From positions 1 to 23,356 of the forward strand of contig JABUUR010000365.1 of NCBI GenBank assembly GCA_021443065.1: 23,356 nucleotides of DNA, read 5' to 3'. A program made the translations under genes and the position numbers. The notes beneath the pieces were generated by a model, which had not been told where the DNA came from, did no database searches, and saw nothing but the letters and a program-made list of their open reading frames with translations. Position 1 is the stretch's first letter, and every line of letters starts with the position of its first letter. The DNA is from Fibrobacter sp. (GTDB lineage: Bacteria; Fibrobacterota; Fibrobacteria; Fibrobacterales; Fibrobacteraceae). Shown piece by piece: positions 1 to 7,377 of this stretch.

Positions 1-7
1 GAATTTT

Positions 8-138
8 GGTTATCGGTTGTCAGTAGTCGGTTATCGGTTGTCGGTTATCGGTGGCTGGTGGTTGGTGAATTGACGAAAGAACGCTGCGCTATAGACGAAA
101 GACGAAAGAATTGTACTGGTTATCGGTTGTGAGCTATG
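8..138. repeat. degenerate 7-bp tandem repeats
   Basis: From 8 to 67 the sequence divides into consecutive heptamers: GGTTATC, GGTTGTC, AGTAGTC, GGTTATC, GGTTGTC, GGTTATC, GGTGGCT, GGTGGTT. The same GGTTATC-GGTTGT pair recurs at 118-131. Between the blocks lie copies of a GACGAAAGA word (73-81, and doubled at about 94-109). No coding potential is visible on either strand. It looks like a short-sequence tandem repeat, of the kind that expands by slippage. A shorter block of the same heptamers lies just after the lipoprotein gene at 2085-2105. Confidence 0.8.
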
Positions 139-523
139 TGCCCAAAGCCGTGCGCTGACCGCTCATTGCTCAAGGCACCTGTGCCGACCTCACACCTCTA
201 GGCTGATTTGCTGCCGAACCTCGTCACAGACCTTAGGATTCCTCTTGACGTGTGATTTTTGTAAATGTATATTAACGATATGCGGTGCTATACCCAAAGA
301 ATGGCGATTGGATCCATGCTAAGTCATTGCGCGAATTGCTGTAGTATTGCCGGCGCAAATTTTGTTGGCACGATATTTGAGGGGGGGGCACTTTTGTGCA
401 GATTGTAACCGTCTTGTAACATCGATTTTCAACAAATGTTTTCTGATGATCCATGACAGGATTATTTCTGCCATGGTTTTTTGTCGTGTTCATTTTGCAA
501 ATAACATTCAAAAGGACTAAACA
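139..523 (+). promoter_or_regulatory. long untranslated leader upstream of the lipoprotein
   Basis: No convincing gene is seen in this stretch of about 385 bases. It holds a G8 homopolymer at 381-388 next to a small GCAC/GTGC hairpin (388-399), and a terminator-like hairpin at 451-482. The ribosome binding site AAAAGGA sits at 510-516, seven bases before the ATG at 524. A minus-strand reading frame at 272-511 has no family resemblance and no ribosome binding site, so I do not call it. Confidence 0.45.
451..482 (+). terminator. terminator-like hairpin in the leader
   Basis: CCATGaCAG (451-459) pairs with CTGcCATGG (468-476), with one internal mismatch and an 8-nt loop. Six T residues follow (477-482). 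The shape is that of an intrinsic terminator. It lies only 41 bases before the lipoprotein start, so it could end an upstream transcript or act as an attenuator in the lipoprotein leader. The sequence does not decide between these. Confidence 0.5.
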
Positions 524-2086
524 ATGAATAAATTCAAAGCACTTGCCCTAGTGGGGGCTTTATCTATGGCTTTCTTCGCCTGCTCGGGGAGCGATGGTGT
601 CGATGGCATTGACGGTGTTGCCGGTGCCAATGGCGAAAACGGTAAGGACGGCCACGATGGTGTCAGTTGTACTATGACCCCTTTAAAGGATTCTACCGGT
701 TTTAAAGTGGTGTGCGGTGGCGACTCTGTGGGCGTCATCATCAATGGTCAAAACGGTACCAATGGAAACGATGGTGAAGACGGGTCCAACGGGGAAAATG
801 GAAAAAGCTGCACCGTGAAGGCGGTGACCAACGAAGAATCTGGTCGGCAGGGTGCAGAAATTTCCTGTGAAGACGGATCGAAACAGGTGCTGTGGAACGG
901 ATTGGATGGCGACCCTGGTTTAGATGGTTCACAGGGTCCTAAGGGCTCCGACGGTGTATCCATGGTCATTTGCGGTGCTGCGGAATACAATCCGGCAGAG
1001 CAATTCTGCTACGGCATTACCTTGTACAATTTGTGCGACAAGGCGGCTTACGAACCTGCGACACATTTTTGCAGCAGCGACAACAAGGTGCTTGAAAAAT
1101 GCGATGGCGAACCTTACGACATTGCCAAGGAACTTTGTGACGAGGCCTTGGGCAAGGTGATTACGGCAAAGAAATGCAACGGGGTGCTCTACAACCCCCG
1201 CCTGCAGGTGTGCGACAACGATGAACTTACAGACCTGGCATCTTGCGACACAGAACAATACAACATCGGTACGCAATTTTGCCATGAAAATCAAGTGTAC
1301 GATTTGTGTGGACTCGAAAGTTATGACCCTGATGAGAAGGAATGTGTAAACGGAACTATAGAGGATGCTTACAACATCGTTTATGGCTTAGAAAAAAAAG
1401 CAAAATTAACCAGTGATGAACTTTATGTGGTGGATAAGAATGGCGATACCATTGCTGTAGATATGGGCATTACCTCTGAAAAGGGCAACAAACTTTACAT
1501 TGCAACCGGCAATCTGATTGTCACTCAAGGCGGATTCGCCTACATTTCCAAGGATCCGGGGTACATTCCTAATGACCGATGGTATAAAGCAGGTGGTGGA
1601 GAATGGGATTTATTCGGTTGGGCAGACACCAGCGGACGAAAAACAAGCACCAGCTTGTCTGATTACCCGGGTTCCGCCCCTCCCACAAACATTTCAGGGA
1701 GAGTTGAATATGACATTGCGAAGTATAAATTGGGCGGTAACTGGCGTTTGCCCACGGGGGATGAACTAAAGAATTTGATAGACGGCAATAATGGGGAGAT
1801 ATCTAGTGTAACTCACACTAAAACAAATCCTGGTAGGCTTTGGAAAAATTCTGAACTAGGCACAGAGCTCTTTATTCCCTTTGCGGGCAACCGTAATGGG
1901 GCCACGCTCTACGATGTTGGTTCACGTGGCTTCGTCTGGTCTGGTTCGCTTAATACCAGCTATACGGACTTCGCTTACCGCCTGGACTTCTATGCGAGTG
2001 GCACGGTTTGGAACTACAACTACCGCTACACTGGTCGGTCAGTCCGTCCCGTCCTAGAATTCACGAGCCTCCCTTGCTTTTTTTAG
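524..2086 (+). CDS. secreted lipoprotein with collagen-like repeats, Cys repeats and Fib_succ_major domain
   Basis: A 520-residue predicted lipoprotein. The first 19 residues are a hydrophobic signal ending in AFFA before Cys20, a reasonable lipobox. Gly-x-y collagen-like runs follow at about 22-48, 75-95 and 127-145. Then come six copies of C-x4-Y-[NDE]-[PI]-x4-C (Cys pairs 150/162, 171/183, 193/205, 218/230, 241/253, 262/274). Residues about 320-512 resemble the Fibrobacter succinogenes major paralogous domain (TIGR02145), including NWRLPTGDE (406-414) and a VRPV ending. In other bacteria such C-type-lectin-like ends are diversified by DGRs, and a broken DGR-type reverse transcriptase follows 28 bp downstream. 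A surface-exposed ligand-binding or adhesion role is inferred, not shown. The start is supported by AAAAGGA at 510-516. The final residues after VRPVLEF are unremarkable, and the stop codon lies in a 7-bp repeat block. Confidence 0.85.
   Translation: MNKFKALALVGALSMAFFACSGSDGVDGIDGVAGANGENGKDGHDGVSCTMTPLKDSTGFKVVCGGDSVGVIINGQNGTNGNDGEDGSNGENGKSCTVKAVTNEESGRQGAEISCEDGSKQVLWNGLDGDPGLDGSQGPKGSDGVSMVICGAAEYNPAEQFCYGITLYNLCDKAAYEPATHFCSSDNKVLEKCDGEPYDIAKELCDEALGKVITAKKCNGVLYNPRLQVCDNDELTDLASCDTEQYNIGTQFCHENQVYDLCGLESYDPDEKECVNGTIEDAYNIVYGLEKKAKLTSDELYVVDKNGDTIAVDMGITSEKGNKLYIATGNLIVTQGGFAYISKDPGYIPNDRWYKAGGGEWDLFGWADTSGRKTSTSLSDYPGSAPPTNISGRVEYDIAKYKLGGNWRLPTGDELKNLIDGNNGEISSVTHTKTNPGRLWKNSELGTELFIPFAGNRNGATLYDVGSRGFVWSGSLNTSYTDFAYRLDFYASGTVWNYNYRYTGRSVRPVLEFTSLPCFF
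1928..2053 (+). other. candidate DGR variable region at the 3' end of the lipoprotein gene
   Basis: This encodes residues about 469-510. It is rich in codons ending in C or T whose first two bases vary (AAT, ACC, AGC, TAT, GAC, TTC, GCT, TAC, CGC), and ends in an alternating AAC/TAC run followed by GGT CGG TCA GTC CGT. Adenine-directed mutagenesis of AAC-type template codons gives this pattern, and the placement at the end of a C-type-lectin-like domain fits. I could not find a matching template repeat in the window, so the assignment rests on position and codon character. Confidence 0.5.
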
Positions 2087-2105
2087 TTGTCAGTTAACGG
2101 TAGTT
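2085..2105. repeat. heptamer repeat block between lipoprotein and reverse transcriptase remnant
   Basis: AGTTGTC, AGTTAAC and GGTAGTT follow one another and belong to the same degenerate heptamer family as 8-67. The block starts inside the lipoprotein stop codon and fills almost all of the 28 bp before the reverse transcriptase remnant. Confidence 0.55.
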
Positions 2106-2114
2106 TGAATATAT

Positions 2115-2831
2115 ATGATGAACTTATCGCAAGAGCAGTTGCTTATAGATTTGATTGGTGCCTACTATTGCGCTTGTAAAAATAAGCGCAAAACCATCAA
2201 TCAGCTAAAGTTCGAGATTGAGCAAGAAGAATACTTGATTGAACTTCGTGACGAACTTTGGGAACGATGCTACAAGCCCTCCAAGTCGATATGTTTTAAC
2301 ATCAAAGACCCAAAACCCAGGCAAATCATAGCCGCAAATTTTCGGGACAGGGTGGTACACCATTTATACTACAACTATGTTTATCCGTTTTTTTTACAAG
2401 CATTGTATTTACGATAGTTACAGCTGCCGCATAGGCAAGGACACACACTTTGGCTCCAGGCGTTACGAACATTTTGCACGTTCGTAAGCCACAACTATAC
2501 GCAGCCTTACTTTGTTTTTAAAGGGAATATCCGCGGGTATTTTATGTCTATCGACCGCACCCTTCTTTTAGAGCGGGTGTGAAACCTTCTTCAAAAAAAA
2601 CGAGGACTCCCTCATGGACATGGATTTTTTAGACACCTTTCTGAGCGGATTATTTTGCAAGACCCTCTTGAAAATTGCATCGAAAAAACGAGCCGATTGT
2701 ATCAAGGACTTCTTGAAAACATGAAGCTCGAGTTGCAACCGTCAAAATGCGAAATCATACCCGGCGAGAAAGACTTTGTTTTTCTGGGATTTGCCCACCA
2801 TCCGTTTTACAAGAAATTTCGCCTGCGGTGA
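2115..2831 (+). pseudogene. decayed reverse transcriptase, DGR type
   Basis: The first 100 codons (2115-2417) read as the N-terminal part of a DGR-like reverse transcriptase: LRDELWERCYKPSK, then DPKPRQIIAANFRDRVVHH, as in the phage BPP-1 Brt layout. The frame is lost in a T8 run (2388-2395). One T fewer continues the homology as FYKHCIYDSYSCRIGKD and on to HFARS. A second shift near 2482-2488 restores SHNYTQPYFVFKGNIRGYFMSID, where motif A has Asn in place of the catalytic Asp. A stop at 2580-2582 and a further shift near 2640 follow, leading to SERIILQDPLENCI. The next readable part, LENMKLELQPSKCEI...FVFLGF, belongs after motif C, so about 100 residues carrying motif B and the YxDD box are deleted near 2698. 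The gene is not functional. The family call is firm; the DGR subtype rests on the N-terminal motif and the neighbour. Confidence 0.85.
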
Positions 2832-2884
2832 AACGTTATATGGGGGTATGCTTACCCATGGGAAAAACTACCATACGGGAATAA

Positions 2885-2957
2885 TACCCGGATCGCGATT
2901 CGAACGCGAGTCTGATCCTTAGGAGGGACCCGTTCTATCCAACTGAACTATCCAGGC
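2885..2957 (-). tRNA. tRNA-Arg (CCT anticodon)
   Basis: The reverse complement folds as a full cloverleaf. The acceptor stem is GCCTGGA/TCCGGGT with a G-U end pair. The D-arm is GTTC...GAAC. The anticodon stem is GGTCC/GGATC around loop CTCCTAA, giving anticodon CCT. The variable loop has 4 nt, and the T-arm TCGCG/CGCGA encloses TTCGAAT. The discriminator base is A and CCA is not encoded. It lies 54 bp beyond the end of the reverse transcriptase remnant and is transcribed toward it. Confidence 0.95.
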
Positions 2958-2997
2958 AGGCTTGCTGGCTGTTGTACTGCCAGAGCAGGTGCAAATA

Positions 2998-3003
2998 TAG
3001 AAT
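2998..3003 (+). promoter_or_regulatory. possible -10 box before the SGNH gene
   Basis: TAGAAT lies 40 bp before the GTG at 3044, in an AT-rich stretch between the divergent tRNA and the gene. No clear -35 box was seen. Confidence 0.3.
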
Positions 3004-3043
3004 AAAGTGAATGTGATAAGGATGAATTTTCTAATTTTTTTAT

Positions 3044-4564
3044 GTGAAAAGAATTTATCTAGTTATAACGGTCGTTTTTTGTCTTTTGCTGCTGTTGCCC
3101 TTTACCGTACAGACGGTGGTGGATCTGCAAGGCGACAAGCGTTTTCGTAGCCTGGATATTTTCAAGGATGTATTCTACACACCTTTTAAGCGGCAGTCGG
3201 ACTTGTCTGCGGGGGCGTTAAGACTGCGTGAATCCTGGAAGGCGGCCCGGGAATCCATTGCCGCCGGTGCAGAAACTTCGGACGCATTGGAGCCGGTCAT
3301 CGGAGCCCTTTCTGACTTGCAGGCGGTGGCGCTTGCCGTGAACGCGTACGCGGAACTGGACAGTGGCGAGGCGTGCTACAAACTGCTAAAGTCTGCGGAT
3401 ACATTGCTTGCCGCCCTTGAGGATGCCCCGGAGTCTTTTTTTGCGGTGGATTCTGCCTTGAAGGCCGTGGTTGACGAATTTAGCGGGTTCTCCCTGGTCA
3501 AGGCTTTTTCTGACATAAGGCGATACGGCGTGTGGACCGGACGCTATATTCGCGCCTTCGAAAAGAAGGTGGAAGACGAAAACGCTCTGGTTCTTGCGGT
3601 TCGCCCCAGGTACCAGCTTGCGGTGTGGAATCTGTTGAAGGACCCCGGCGAAAAGGTGGTGCTGGGGGCTCGGGGTTCCAAGGAGGGCGAAGACTCCTGG
3701 CTGTACTACCGTCAGGATGTGGATTTTCTGGTGCAACCGTCACCTTTGGACCTTCGTTCTGCCAGGTTGGACAATCCTATTTCTGCCATAGCCAGGTTCC
3801 GGGACCAGTTGAAGGAAAAGGGTGTGGAACTGCTGGTGGTCATTGTACCGGGAAAGCCAAGCATCTATCCGGAATACCTGACGGGCGAGGGCGCCGACGC
3901 CATGATGGGTAAAGACGGCTCTCCCAAGTTCGGTCATGGCAAGATGATCCTGGATTCCTTGAACAAGCTGGGATTTTACACGGTGGATCTCTACACTCCT
4001 TTCTGGGATGCCAAGTGGTTCGATGAAAGGTTGGGCGCGTTGTATCTGAACGACGATACCCACTGGACTCCCCGGGGTGCCGAAATGGCCGCCGACTTGA
4101 TCTCGGAAAAGGTTCGCCGAATGATGGCGGATTCCGTTGTGAACTTGGGGGTGGAAAAGATGAAATACAAGGTGCAGGACAGCCTTGCCGACCGTATGGG
4201 GGATATCGGCGAAATGAGCGGGTTGAACAAGTTCAACACCTTCAAGGTGCAGCAGGTTGTCGGACATGTGGTTTCTCCGTTCAAGGATGATTTCCGCAAG
4301 TCGAAAATCTTGATTCTGGGGGACAGTTTTAGCCGCATCTACCAGACCGATGCCCCTGTGAATGCCGGTTGGATTGCCCATTTCGCAAAGAACATGAACC
4401 GCCCTGTGGCAAGCCTGGTAAGCGATGGCGGTGCCAGCACCCTGGTTCGCGAAAAGATGGCTCGCAAGGCCGGGGTTCTCAAGGGAAAGAAATTGGTAAT
4501 CTGGGAATTCGTGGAACGTGATTTGCGGTTTGGCGCCGAGGGCTGGAAAAACGTGGAATTTTAG
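3044..4564 (+). CDS. AlgX/AlgJ-like SGNH acetyltransferase/hydrolase family protein
   Basis: A 506-residue protein with one N-terminal membrane segment or uncleaved signal (residues about 4-24) and an extracytoplasmic body. The C-terminal half carries the AlgX/AlgJ SGNH-like fold: VELLVVIVPGKPSIYP (261-276), the acidic/His motif DTHW (338-341) and the nucleophile motif GDSF (426-429, Ser428). In this family these three residues transfer or remove acetyl groups on exported polysaccharides, usually with a membrane MBOAT partner. No MBOAT gene is seen here. The N-terminal 200 residues are helical and less recognisable. The start is a GTG with no well-placed Shine-Dalgarno; nearby ATGs at 3022 and 3042 are out of frame. 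It is the first gene of a run with the HTH gene (8 bp gap) and pmbA. Confidence 0.8.
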   Translation: MKRIYLVITVVFCLLLLLPFTVQTVVDLQGDKRFRSLDIFKDVFYTPFKRQSDLSAGALRLRESWKAARESIAAGAETSDALEPVIGALSDLQAVALAVNAYAELDSGEACYKLLKSADTLLAALEDAPESFFAVDSALKAVVDEFSGFSLVKAFSDIRRYGVWTGRYIRAFEKKVEDENALVLAVRPRYQLAVWNLLKDPGEKVVLGARGSKEGEDSWLYYRQDVDFLVQPSPLDLRSARLDNPISAIARFRDQLKEKGVELLVVIVPGKPSIYPEYLTGEGADAMMGKDGSPKFGHGKMILDSLNKLGFYTVDLYTPFWDAKWFDERLGALYLNDDTHWTPRGAEMAADLISEKVRRMMADSVVNLGVEKMKYKVQDSLADRMGDIGEMSGLNKFNTFKVQQVVGHVVSPFKDDFRKSKILILGDSFSRIYQTDAPVNAGWIAHFAKNMNRPVASLVSDGGASTLVREKMARKAGVLKGKKLVIWEFVERDLRFGAEGWKNVEF

Positions 4565-4572
4565 AGGAATGT

Positions 4573-4806
4573 ATGGCTAGACATGGAACTCCCACACCGG
4601 GACAGGCTATTTTGGAAGGCATGGAATGGCTTAAGATGGACAAGGCCGAGTTTGGCCGCCGCCTTGGCGTAAGCGTCGAAATCTTGGAAGCGTTGATTGC
4701 CGGGAACCAGCCGATTACCACGGAATTGGCTACGGCGCTTGAGTCTGTGACGGGGAGCCCCGCCGCCTACTGGAAAATGTTGGAACGAAAGTCAAAGAGT
4801 GTTTAA
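4573..4806 (+). CDS. HigA-like XRE-family HTH protein (orphan antitoxin-like)
   Basis: A 77-residue protein built like HigA antitoxins: TPGQAILEGMEWLKM, then a helix-turn-helix KAEFGRRLGVSVEILEALI, then ITTELATALESVTGSPAAYW. HigA proteins bind DNA and neutralise the HigB RNase, but no higB-like gene is next to it. It may be a solitary regulator of this operon. The start is set by GAGGA at 4564-4568, four bases before the ATG. The stop is one base before the pmbA ATG, so the two are probably translationally coupled. The XRE/HigA fold is well supported; the target is unknown. Confidence 0.8.
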   Translation: MARHGTPTPGQAILEGMEWLKMDKAEFGRRLGVSVEILEALIAGNQPITTELATALESVTGSPAAYWKMLERKSKSV

Positions 4807-4807
4807 G

Positions 4808-6136
4808 ATGAATATTGTTGACGCTGTAACTTATATTTGCGATATCGCCAAAGGCCAGTCCGAACAGTACGATGTGATTGCTTCTACATCCCATTCCGAG
4901 GGCTTGTCCGTATTTCAGGGGCAGGTGCAGAATACGGAAATTTCTGATTCTGTGGGCTTGGGTATTCGCGTAATCAAGAATGGCCGCCCGGGCTATGCCT
5001 ACACGGAACGCTTGACAAAAGAAGCCATTGCCCAGACGTTGAAGGATGCCCTCTGCCACACCCAGTGGACGGAGGCAATCGATATCCTGCTGCCCAAGCC
5101 CGTGGAAATGCCCGAGGAATACCCCAATTACAATCCAGCCTTGGAATCCCTGGATCTTAAGCAGTTGAAAGATTTTTGCATCGAGTTGGAAAAGCAGACT
5201 TTTGCAAAGTCCGGAGAAATCGAGAACATTCCCTACCTAGGGGCTGACATGACCAGCGGGTCTTCGGTCATAGCAAACAGCGAAGGCGTTTTCTATAAGG
5301 GCAAGTCCAATTCCGCCTCTGTGGGGGCGGGGGCGGTGGCTGTCCGCGATGGCGTAAAGAAACTGGGCAATTTTGTAAAGTCCGGCCGCGATTGGTCGCA
5401 GTTTAGCATCGACGAAATTGCCTCGAAGACTGCAGGCTATGCCACGGAACTTTTCGGGGCAAGGAAAATTGAAGGCGGCAAGATTCCTGTGGTTTTCTCC
5501 GAACGCGTGTCTGCCCGCATTATCGGGATGTACGCCTCTTCGTTTGATGCGGAATCTATGCAGCGTGGGCAGTCTTGCCTTGCGGGCAAAGAAGGTAAAG
5601 TCGTTGCAGGGGAAAAGTTCTCCATCGTCAACGACCCTCAGGGTGAAATGTTCCAGCACAAGTACCGCTGCGATTCCGAGGGTTGCATTGCCCGGCGTGT
5701 GGACGTGATCAAGAATGGCGTGTTTAACGAAGCCTTGTATAACCTGGAAACCGCAGCGAAAGCCGGACGTGAAACTACAGGAAATGGCGCCCGCAATTTC
5801 GGAAGCAAGATGGGGACATCCTTCCATAACTTGCTGGTGCCGCCTGGTGCGCTGACTACCGCGGAACTTTTAAAGCTGTTCCCCAAGTGCCTGCTGGTGG
5901 TGCGCCTGGAAGGCGGCTCCGGCTGCAACGCCGTCAGCGGTGAATTGAGCATGGGTGCCCACGGTTTCTGGTGCGAGAACGGCGTAATCCAGCATCCGGT
6001 TGACGGTGTGACCTTGAGCGGAAATTTCTTTGACATAATCCGGAACGTGGTTGACGTGGGCAACGAGTACAAGGATCCCTTCAGTACCTACCAGGTTCCG
6101 GCTTTGGCGGTAAGCGAACTGAGCGTAAGCGTTTAG
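4808..6136 (+). CDS. pmbA: PmbA/TldE family protein
   Basis: A 442-residue protein matching PmbA (TldE), the partner of TldD in a heterodimeric cytosolic metalloprotease. In E. coli that protease processes microcin B17 and degrades the unfolded antitoxin CcdA. Typical features are the C-terminal run EGGSGCNAVSGELSMGAHGF, then NGVIQHPVDGVTLSGNF, and the absence of a HExxxH zinc motif, which belongs to TldD. Length is close to the E. coli protein (450). ATG 4808 is preferred; an in-frame GTG at 4799 would overlap the HTH gene. No tldD is visible in the window. The stop is followed by tandem repeats and a hairpin terminator. Confidence 0.9.
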   Translation: MNIVDAVTYICDIAKGQSEQYDVIASTSHSEGLSVFQGQVQNTEISDSVGLGIRVIKNGRPGYAYTERLTKEAIAQTLKDALCHTQWTEAIDILLPKPVEMPEEYPNYNPALESLDLKQLKDFCIELEKQTFAKSGEIENIPYLGADMTSGSSVIANSEGVFYKGKSNSASVGAGAVAVRDGVKKLGNFVKSGRDWSQFSIDEIASKTAGYATELFGARKIEGGKIPVVFSERVSARIIGMYASSFDAESMQRGQSCLAGKEGKVVAGEKFSIVNDPQGEMFQHKYRCDSEGCIARRVDVIKNGVFNEALYNLETAAKAGRETTGNGARNFGSKMGTSFHNLLVPPGALTTAELLKLFPKCLLVVRLEGGSGCNAVSGELSMGAHGFWCENGVIQHPVDGVTLSGNFFDIIRNVVDVGNEYKDPFSTYQVPALAVSELSVSV

Positions 6137-6234
6137 CGGCTTGTCTGCGCGGCTTGCCTATGCTTGTCTGAGTGACTCGTCTGTACGGCTTGCCTATGCT
6201 TGTCTGAGTGATCCGTCTGTACGGCTTGTCTGCG
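6137..6234. repeat. 36-bp tandem repeat directly after pmbA
   Basis: Two 36-bp copies (6150-6185 and 6186-6221) differ at only two or three positions. They are flanked by identical 13-bp partial units CGGCTTGTCTGCG at 6137-6149 and 6222-6234. There are no spacers, so this is not a CRISPR array. Translated in reverse, the unit encodes a 12-residue repeat, but there is no sign that this is expressed. Confidence 0.85.
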
Positions 6235-6240
6235 CTGGAG

Positions 6241-6284
6241 AGGACTATTTGACCTTTTTTGGGTGAATAGTCCTTTGTTTTTTT
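6241..6284 (+). terminator. hairpin terminator of the pmbA operon
   Basis: AGGACTATT (6241-6249) pairs with AATAGTCCT (6266-6274), with an inner ACC/GGT pairing. TTTGTTTTTTT follows. It is the first of four hairpins with the same arms. Confidence 0.7.
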
Positions 6285-6311
6285 GTGTTGCATTTGCGTG
6301 TTGTTGGTAAA

Positions 6312-6507
6312 AAAGGACTATTACCCTGTTTTTATGGGGTTTAGTCCTTTAACAAGGGGGTGTAGCGATGAATTTCACCCCAACTTTTTGTTAATTTGTT
6401 TGTAAAACGGGAAATTTAAAGGACTAAACAGGCCTGAATTTTCTTTTAGTCCTTGACCTGCCTCAAAAGCGAAGGACTAAACCCTGGAAAACGCTCTTTT
6501 AGTCCTT
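6312..6507. repeat. three further AGGACTA/TAGTCCT hairpins
   Basis: Inverted repeats lie at 6312-6320/6342-6350 (AAAGGACTA, 21-nt interior with an inner ACCC/GGGT), 6419-6428/6445-6454 (AAGGACTAAA, 16-nt interior) and 6472-6481/6498-6507 (AAGGACTAAA, 16-nt interior). The loops differ while the arms are kept. The last arm overlaps the lgt stop codon, so in the minus direction it may help end the orn-PBP-lgt transcript. The same word occurs once more as the ribosome-binding region AAAAGGACTAAACA just before the lipoprotein ATG. Nothing coding is seen in 6137-6498. Confidence 0.8.
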
Positions 6508-7377
6508 GATTTTGCTCTTTTCGCCCTTTCTCGACCTGTAAATCAGCACAACGAGCCAGATCAGCCCCGTGATGATCATCAGGCTGCACAGGGTTTGGCC
6601 GCGGCTCATGCCGAACAAGTCGTTTCGCCCCAGATGTGCATCGGACTTTCTAAAGAATTCAATGAAGAATCTGAAAAAGCCGTATCCCATCAGGTAGAGG
6701 CAGGGCATCTTGTCCTTAAGCAGGGGGATGCGGCGAAGATTGTACAAGAGCGCGAATAGCACCACGCCTTCGAAAACCATTTCGTAAAGTTGGCTGGGGT
6801 GGTGGAGGATTGGGTTGCTCAGGGGACTGTCGTGGGCCAGCGGGAAATACATGCCGATGGCGCTGGTGGTGACCTCGCCAAAAAGTTCGCCGTTGATAAA
6901 GTTGCCCCAACGTCCCCAGGTGTATGCCAGGGGTGCCACCAAGAAGCAAAGGTTCAACCCCTTCCAAACGTCCATCTTGTTTTTCTTGAGGCCGATGATG
7001 GTGAAAATCGTTCCCAAAATGAGGCCACCGTGATAACTCATGCCGGCGATGCCTGCAAAGTGATAGCCGTTTGCGTCATGGATCAATGGCAAAATGATTT
7101 CGGTGGGGTTGGCCAGGTAGTAGCCGGGCTTGTAGAAGAAAACGTAGCCTAGGCGGGCCCCAAGGATGATGCCCACGATAATCCAGGTGAACAGGCTGTC
7201 CAACTGTTCCTTGGTATAGCCCATCTGCTCTTTCTTGATGGTTCGCCACATGGCAAAGTACGCCGTAACAAAGGCGAAAATGTACATGATGCCGTACCAG
7301 CGTACGGGAAAACCGAACAGCTCTATGGCTGTTCCGTCGAAATATGTGGGAATCAGATTCCACCAGGATAATTCCAT
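6499..7377 (-). CDS. lgt: phosphatidylglycerol--prolipoprotein diacylglyceryl transferase
   Basis: Lgt, 292 residues, is a polytopic inner-membrane enzyme that transfers a diacylglyceryl group from phosphatidylglycerol to the lipobox Cys of prelipoproteins. The family signature GRWGNFINGE is at 155-164, SYHGG with the conserved His at 114-118, and the FFRFFIEFFR segment with a conserved Arg near 234-243. About seven membrane segments are evident. It is the third gene of the minus-strand operon, 16 bp after the PBP stop. The upstream lipoprotein at 524-2086 would be one of its substrates. Confidence 0.95.
   Translation of the reverse strand: MELSWWNLIPTYFDGTAIELFGFPVRWYGIMYIFAFVTAYFAMWRTIKKEQMGYTKEQLDSLFTWIIVGIILGARLGYVFFYKPGYYLANPTEIILPLIHDANGYHFAGIAGMSYHGGLILGTIFTIIGLKKNKMDVWKGLNLCFLVAPLAYTWGRWGNFINGELFGEVTTSAIGMYFPLAHDSPLSNPILHHPSQLYEMVFEGVVLFALLYNLRRIPLLKDKMPCLYLMGYGFFRFFIEFFRKSDAHLGRNDLFGMSRGQTLCSLMIITGLIWLVVLIYRSRKGEKSKIKD

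Follow-up and report, generated by a model that had tools for sequence, protein, structure and literature searches.

Remnant of a diversity-generating retroelement beside an intact lectin-like gene in Fibrobacter, probably collapsed between its repeats

Degraded diversity-generating retroelements (DGRs) are known. Examples are a solitary reverse transcriptase (RT) in Anabaena sp. 90, degenerate Thiohalocapsa loci and, in Pseudogulbenkiania, distal targets with a mutated RT nearby, and 8 of 17 listed T. denticola isolates carry targets without an RT or a template repeat (TR) (PMC7517822, PMC10907252, PMC3521204, PMC4891356). The accessible parts of these papers name transposons or duplication as causes of degradation and do not describe repeat collapse; one of them suggests that the machinery is removed once a good variant has been found (PMC7517822). 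In a literature search leaving out most subscription papers, collapse between the variable repeat (VR) and the TR was likewise not described in the accessible text of PMC8144416, PMC7517822, PMC4891356, PMC3521204, PMC12875486, PMC6642488 and PMC10907252. Within that text, how a cassette switches off and its target freezes is little described. Here we analyse a 23,356-nt stretch of Fibrobacter sp. DNA (the window), which makes up the entire contig C4; the assembly has 535 contigs totalling 2.2 Mb and an estimated completeness of 70%. In this window, an intact gene with a lectin-like end stands directly ahead of a broken RT. We consider it probable that the locus is the remnant of a DGR whose cassette collapsed by recombination between VR and TR, deleting the accessory gene avd together with the TR and freezing the target. 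In the counts below, "window" denotes this Fibrobacter locus, Lnnn the related loci and Gnnn the genomes compared.

The locus comprises a 520-aa target open reading frame (ORF; 524-2086, + strand), a gap of 28 bp and, on the same strand, an RT remnant starting at 2115 and reaching to ~2890, an arrangement already noted in a preliminary description of the sequence. The N-terminal ORF of the RT spans 2115-2417 and carries the DGR-type motif DPKPRQIIAANFRDRVVHH; the first 93 RT residues share one frame (2115-2393). The remnant then continues as shifted pieces (2392-2830, +), recognized by tblastn of relatives against the window and from the reading frames. The frame changes near 2393 into a YDSYSCR piece (~2392-2484) that ends at a stop at ~2485, and motif A follows in another frame (~2490-2579), itself closed by a stop. 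There, the first Asp of motif A, which we take to be a catalytic residue of the RT, has been replaced (KGNIRGYF, versus RLDVSGFF in the relative L033). A DPLENC piece (~2631-2690) comes next, and roughly 70 codons, including the SQ and YVDD motifs, are gone ahead of a recognizable FLGF end piece (~2700-2812). With its frameshift and stops, and with the motif A Asp, SQ and YxDD all missing, the RT is dead, in agreement with that description.

Judged by searches with its N-terminal part, the remnant is of DGR type. This part matches phrog_1423 (E 2e-22). Among solved structures, the RT of the BPP-1 DGR (Brt) is its sole match at E up to 1 (2.9e-6). In the phage search, it matches DGR-bearing phages including BPP-1, whose Brt is 35% identical (E 7e-6). 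Matches are also found in 25 of 111 genomes of the family and 34 of 167 of the phylum (own genome included in both), in 20 viral loci and in 48 genome-contig loci, the latter mostly titled Bacteroidales or families within, with few others; further viral-contig scans mostly returned the same contigs. The closest relative is 59% identical. Two RT trees on 93 columns are poorly resolved. In the second, which omitted 10 rows that were short or nearly duplicated others and 5 loci whose RTs were cut or distant, the window groups with Bacteroidales and viral DGRs and not with those of Fibrobacterota (Shimodaira-Hasegawa-like approximate likelihood ratio test, SH-aLRT, 67). Transfer from Bacteroidales is plausible.

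TR/VR pairs were found in 80 related loci, of which 25 are from Fibrobacterota, 19 are viral and 36 come from the genome-contig scan (including L220, titled Bacilli, and L226, from Staskawiczbacteria). Mismatches fall at TR adenines in 1,749 of 1,813 cases and at VR adenines in 14. Pairs were retained with at least 8 mismatches of which more than 85% were at A or, by a second threshold, at least 6 with more than 80%; this selection explains part of the share at A, but not the scarcity of mismatches at VR adenines. Loci of weaker bias stand outside the 80 (L205, 16/20 at A; L218, 24/30; L210, 30/48; L211, 4/13), and near-identical loci, for example L037/L038, L044/L045/L046, L139/L140 and L153/L154, are each counted here and in the set of 98 loci used below. 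Four phage records whose RTs are related, among them BPP-1, have adenine-biased pairs as well. Adenine-biased templates, whose absence from related genomes the preliminary description would have taken as fatal to a DGR origin, are thus present in relatives. Together with the searches made with the RT, they uphold its view that a DGR has decayed here next to an intact lectin-like target.

In the related loci, target, avd, TR and RT normally follow one another in this order, so the bare tandem of target and RT, which had been put forward as the gene order of DGRs, is not the usual one. Distances were measured, in the best pair per locus, to a fixed position in the RT (the RT anchor). The TR ends 20-164 nt upstream of it in 77 of the 80 loci, the exceptions being L226 (501 nt) and L037 and L038 (TR downstream). 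The VR ends 531-2038 nt upstream in 78 of the 80, and 190 nt upstream in L037/L038. In the window, the repeat of the target ends 92 nt ahead of the anchor, which is the usual place of a TR. Among the 98 loci with at least 500 nt upstream, 6 have a lectin domain of full length (126 of 130 aa or more) that ends within 220 nt of the anchor, namely the window itself, L190, L198, L229, L037 and L038.

The body of the presumed VR (1874-2059, +) aligns with templates of related DGRs. Its codons were compared with those of 37 VRs in an alignment with 35 TRs, taking the columns in which 60% or more of the templates read AAC or AAT. At these template-Asn columns, 18/18 window codons end in C or T, versus 25/40 elsewhere (Fisher p 0.0014), and 13 of the 18 no longer encode Asn; in pooled known VRs, the C/T-ending codons at the same columns amount to 636/644. 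The A content of the repeat, 0.177, lies inside the VR range (5-95%: 0.113-0.190) and under the template mean of 0.262. Past diversification of the target is suggested by the codons and appears likely from homology and layout. The spacer between repeat and RT (2060-2114, +), a presumed deletion scar, resembles a template side, with a T run and no hairpin. With RNA parameters, a fold energy of -14.4 kcal/mol was obtained for the 110 nt 3' of the repeat. This is weaker than in any of the 80 VR flanks (-80.1 to -21.6) and lies within the range of the 80 TR flanks (-45.5 to -5.4); hence, the VR-type hairpin expected just 3' of the repeat is absent. In addition, the target stop falls exactly at the repeat end in 15 of the 19 viral loci and within 8 nt in the other 4, whereas the window reads 24 nt beyond.

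As had been noted before, the window shows neither an avd-like gene nor a template. Nine avd-type queries gave at best a tblastn match of 10 residues (4598-4627; E 0.036), and the best score of the repeat search was 13.0, versus 11.5, 11.5 and 13.0 for three shuffles. The 70% complete assembly contains no avd match (one query), no second copy of the repeat, no other RT match and, at E 1e-3, no further relative of the lectin part of the target. The near-identical repeat and the intact RT that the preliminary description proposed to look for in the genome were therefore not found in this assembly. Nor is the idea of one satellite target among many abundant paralogues supported, as none of the 20 Fib_succ_major matches of the assembly is this target. 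The lack of an RT, TR or avd elsewhere in that assembly, together with the missing VR hairpin, favours a frozen target. Catalytic motifs, template, avd and VR hairpin all being absent, the locus is a remnant and not a functional DGR, with an RT that belongs, by the searches with its N-terminal part, to the DGR clade.

A junction of the proposed kind is directly visible in L198. This locus shares one contig of a Paludibacteraceae metagenome-assembled genome (MAG) with L200, which has a target, accessory gene, TR, VR and RT. Compared with L200, L198 matches the target side up to the repeat and the TR side after it, running into a broken RT, and the last residues of the L198 target derive from the template-side flank. 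The L198 junction is a deletion between two repeats, and L198 and L200 form a natural after-and-before pair on one contig. The avd match in their genome (one query) fits the place of the accessory gene of L200. In L190 (Bacteroidaceae MAG; 3676-7134), the target is directly followed by a whole 382-aa DGR RT ORF with SQ and YVDD. A search of its genome returned no TR for L190, just a partial match (73%) to a different lectin gene, and no avd match (one query). Some of the matches of L190 to the template sides of L201, L194 and L211 pass the repeat end, and those to their variable sides do not. The target ends 135 nt from the RT anchor in L198 and 103 nt in L190, and neither locus contains an avd match or a TR.

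Two further ideas were considered and set aside. A self-templating DGR with a single repeat, in which the VR is its own template, was suggested by the whole RT of L190 and its lack of a TR. It is disfavoured because the A content of the repeats of the window, L190 (0.148) and L198 (0.202) comes close to the range usual for VRs and not to zero, and because the RT of the window is dead. L229 was tried as a fourth collapse and dropped, since it keeps a strongly folding VR-type flank and its RT is cut at the N-terminus. No template was found in the DGRs L224, L225, L228 and L229, some of which have an avd-type gene running into, or lying beside, a shortened RT; the first three appear to have lost the TR by other ways.

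We propose that the ancestral cassette of the window would have had the order target (with its VR), avd, TR and RT. The 3' ends of its VR and TR would have been nearly identical, and recombination or slippage between them would have removed avd and the TR, thereby joining the VR to the TR-side flank directly ahead of the RT. Deprived of its template, its accessory protein and the VR hairpin, the element would have been unable to write. The decay of the RT by frameshifts, loss of the catalytic Asp and internal deletion would have come afterwards, with the last target variant remaining open. Direct repeats flanking avd offer a simple route to such a collapse. The adjacency of target and RT in the window is best read as a deletion scar, which presumably arose like that of L198, and the target left behind may be displayed at the cell surface and may have retained a function.

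Several points weigh against this reconstruction. No close relative of the window element was found, and its own junction is seen only through spacing and flank type. The locus lies at the end of a contig in an assembly that is 70% complete, and a misjoin at repeats is possible in metagenome assemblies, both here and in L190. Position 2059 was chosen as the repeat end on grounds of homology. The flank is AT-rich (its GC of 0.36 equals the lowest among the 36 genome-contig VR flanks), which weakens folding, and old decay alone could erase a hairpin. Reading past the repeat end, by 41-69 nt, also occurs in 4 of the 25 Fibrobacterota loci. A codon control was made with 16 lectin-like family genes, those of 29 loci with enough aligned columns; they were not chosen as DGR targets, and some may be targets. 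They gave 237/279 C/T-ending codons and 2 of the 16 reach 18/18, so the codon signature is suggestive, not specific. The flank fold energies of L190 (-27.8) and L198 (-28.4) lie within both the VR and TR ranges and prove neither side, and L229 indicates that another deletion can also join target and RT. As to the kinship with Bacteroidales, it rests on a weak tree, and the first RT tree, from which 3 rows were left out, does not resolve the position of the window. Finally, other cassette orders exist, in L037/L038 and in the accessible part of PMC6642488, which reports 122 patterns.

Such an order leads to another explanation of the locus. L037 and L038, from two genomes of the genus of the window, have the order target, RT, avd-type gene and TR, with an adenine-biased TR/VR pair and a TR ending ~2.1 kb downstream of the RT anchor. 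Had the window started from this order, avd and TR would have been lost on the right, beside a tRNA-Arg gene, and indeed nothing remains between the RT remnant and this tRNA. We nevertheless regard this as unlikely, since the VR of L037/L038 ends 190 nt, not 92 nt, from the RT anchor and its flank folding (-75.6 and -72.9) is the strongest of the set or nearly so. In addition, L037 falls within the Fibrobacterota RTs and the window outside them, with weak support in one tree and no resolution in the other. Alternatively, avd and TR could have been lost piecemeal, through a deletion independent of the repeats, the 92-nt spacing then being due to chance. L229 is such a deletion, L224, L225 and L228 seem to have become TR-less by other routes, and the RT of the window carries several lesions. 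However, the start of that RT is complete, spacing and absent hairpin agree with a TR side, and L198 attests that repeat-mediated collapse does happen; piecemeal loss thus seems distinctly improbable to us.

The same searches bear on whether an RT and a TR encoded at another site could still be diversifying the target in trans. In favour, a DGR with distant targets has been reported (accessible part of PMC3521204), and ~30% of the genome is missing from the assembly. Yet its 2.2 Mb contain no TR-like copy, other RT match or avd match, and the VR-type hairpin is missing, which makes this very improbable in our view. Lastly, the RT could derive from a group II intron or a retron and lie by chance beside a lectin-like gene. 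The end piece of the RT gives a weak match to a group II model (E 0.0024; 17 bits, cut-off 300), which is also the best NCBIfam match, far under cut-off, for two relatives (106.7 and 92.5 bits). Against this stand the matches of the N-terminal part to BPP-1 Brt, the TR/VR pairs that adjoin the relatives, and the relative L138, which reaches E 1.1e-34 with BPP-1 Brt versus 1.1e-8 with the best group II maturase. We give this origin practically no credence. The preliminary description had named a phylogenetic placement with such RTs as grounds for abandoning its claim. The N-terminal part goes with DGR RTs, a placement made by sequence searches and not by a tree with group II or retron RTs.

If the cassette of the window did collapse between VR and TR, such recombination might be a recurrent off-switch built into DGRs. 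The element would carry its own direct repeats around avd, and a single crossover at the conserved 3' end would fix a variant and disarm the machine. We put this forward tentatively, as possible but somewhat doubtful. The corresponding layout is present in 3 of the 98 loci (window, L198 and L190), and the junction is directly seen in L198 only. If the idea is true, L190 with its whole RT would be a young collapse, and selection could use collapse to lock in a good variant. DGR searches by TR/VR pairs miss such frozen targets, and the adjacency of target and RT without a template may be a recognizable scar.

The target gene (524-2086, +) encodes a putative lipoprotein, its start (FFAC) being read by eye from the sequence, with collagen-like Gly-X-Y stretches, Cys-rich repeats (Galaxin_repeat, under cut-off) and a C-type-lectin-like C-terminus. 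The collagen-like region (residues 22-145; 587-958, +) matches PF01391 in two stretches (E 1e-6), the best at residues 22-46, and the SclB/SclA models over 22-145, far under cut-off. The lectin-like domain (1730-2053, +), of Lcl_C / FISUMP-like type, had been labelled Fib_succ_major, but it does not reach that model (Fib_succ_major / FISUMP, TIGR02145; 13.8 bits versus a curated cut-off of 41.65). Lcl_C (PF07603, residues 403-510) is closer, yet also under cut-off (24.7 and 27.1 bits versus 34.9). Compared with 17 target domains taken from DGR loci on genome contigs and viral contigs, the lectin part is 34-46% identical. In its own bacterial family, identity is at most 34% over more than 120 residues, with shorter matches up to 43%, so the family comparison alone does not place it. 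The structure model of this part is poor (mean predicted local distance difference test, pLDDT, 43). The genome-contig and viral-contig scans confirmed no relative of it, and the phage collection held none at E 1e-5. In G098, 15 matches to the lectin part are found, without a match to the N-terminal part of the RT; among the best two and one more, two contain a stop codon.

Other observations concern the accessory parts of related cassettes. The avd-type genes of L034, L038, L040 and L045 are 240-280 aa long and Avd-like only in their C-terminal half, mostly weakly; the N-terminal half of that of L038 matches MutS_I under cut-off. In L181, the DGR of Pseudomonas phage Cruim01, the Rfam RT-15 RNA (3681-3873) ends where the TR starts (3871), and RT-15 may be part of a DGR RNA.

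The locus is bordered by the tRNA-Arg (CCT) gene (2884-2958, - strand). An Rfam search of 1-3100 returned this tRNA and one weak match, far under cut-off. The same neighbouring gene is accompanied by a tRNA-Arg (CCT), in one or the other orientation, in 11 of 12 relatives. Since the 12 loci reached through this tRNA-side gene gave no match (E 0.01) to the N-terminal part of the RT or to the lectin part, the DGR cassette probably represents an insertion beside the tRNA-Arg. The tRNA copy of the window is 100% identical to that of G019 and yet only 77% to that of G051, which has the closest neighbouring gene, perhaps indicating a swapped or flipped segment. Close to the contig end, at 8-138, the window contains GGTTATCGGTTGT-type repeated units.

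Compared with known systems, the window element shares with the BPP-1 DGR (L178) an RT of DGR type; the annotated TR and VR of BPP-1 have 17 of 18 mismatches at A. BPP-1 differs in being a phage tropism cassette, with 35% identity over the N-terminal part of the RT. The Fibrobacterota DGRs (L033-L056) have a related RT, and the target of L049, as read from its ORF, also begins as a collagen-like lipoprotein. In contrast to the window, their repeats end in SVRCLKD or SVRLVKD types, they mostly form a separate RT group and, where the TR precedes the RT, the spacing is 20-57 nt in 18 of 19 loci and 90 nt in L056. By sequence, the window element appears most like the chromosomal DGRs of Bacteroidales MAGs (L182, L201, L216, L221 and others) and of viral contigs. 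With the former, the N-terminal part of the RT is 41-59% identical in pairwise comparisons and the lectin domain 34-46% (a range that includes viral targets). Moreover, the TR of L201 aligns without gaps with the window repeat, and the Bacteroidales TR-to-RT spacing spans the 92 nt of the window. Unlike the window, where these features are absent and the RT is broken, these DGRs, where tested, have an avd-type gene, a TR and a VR hairpin. Closest in layout are L198 and L190, which like the window have the target near the RT anchor and no avd match or TR in the locus; L190 differs by its whole RT, and L198 by the sister cassette on the same contig.

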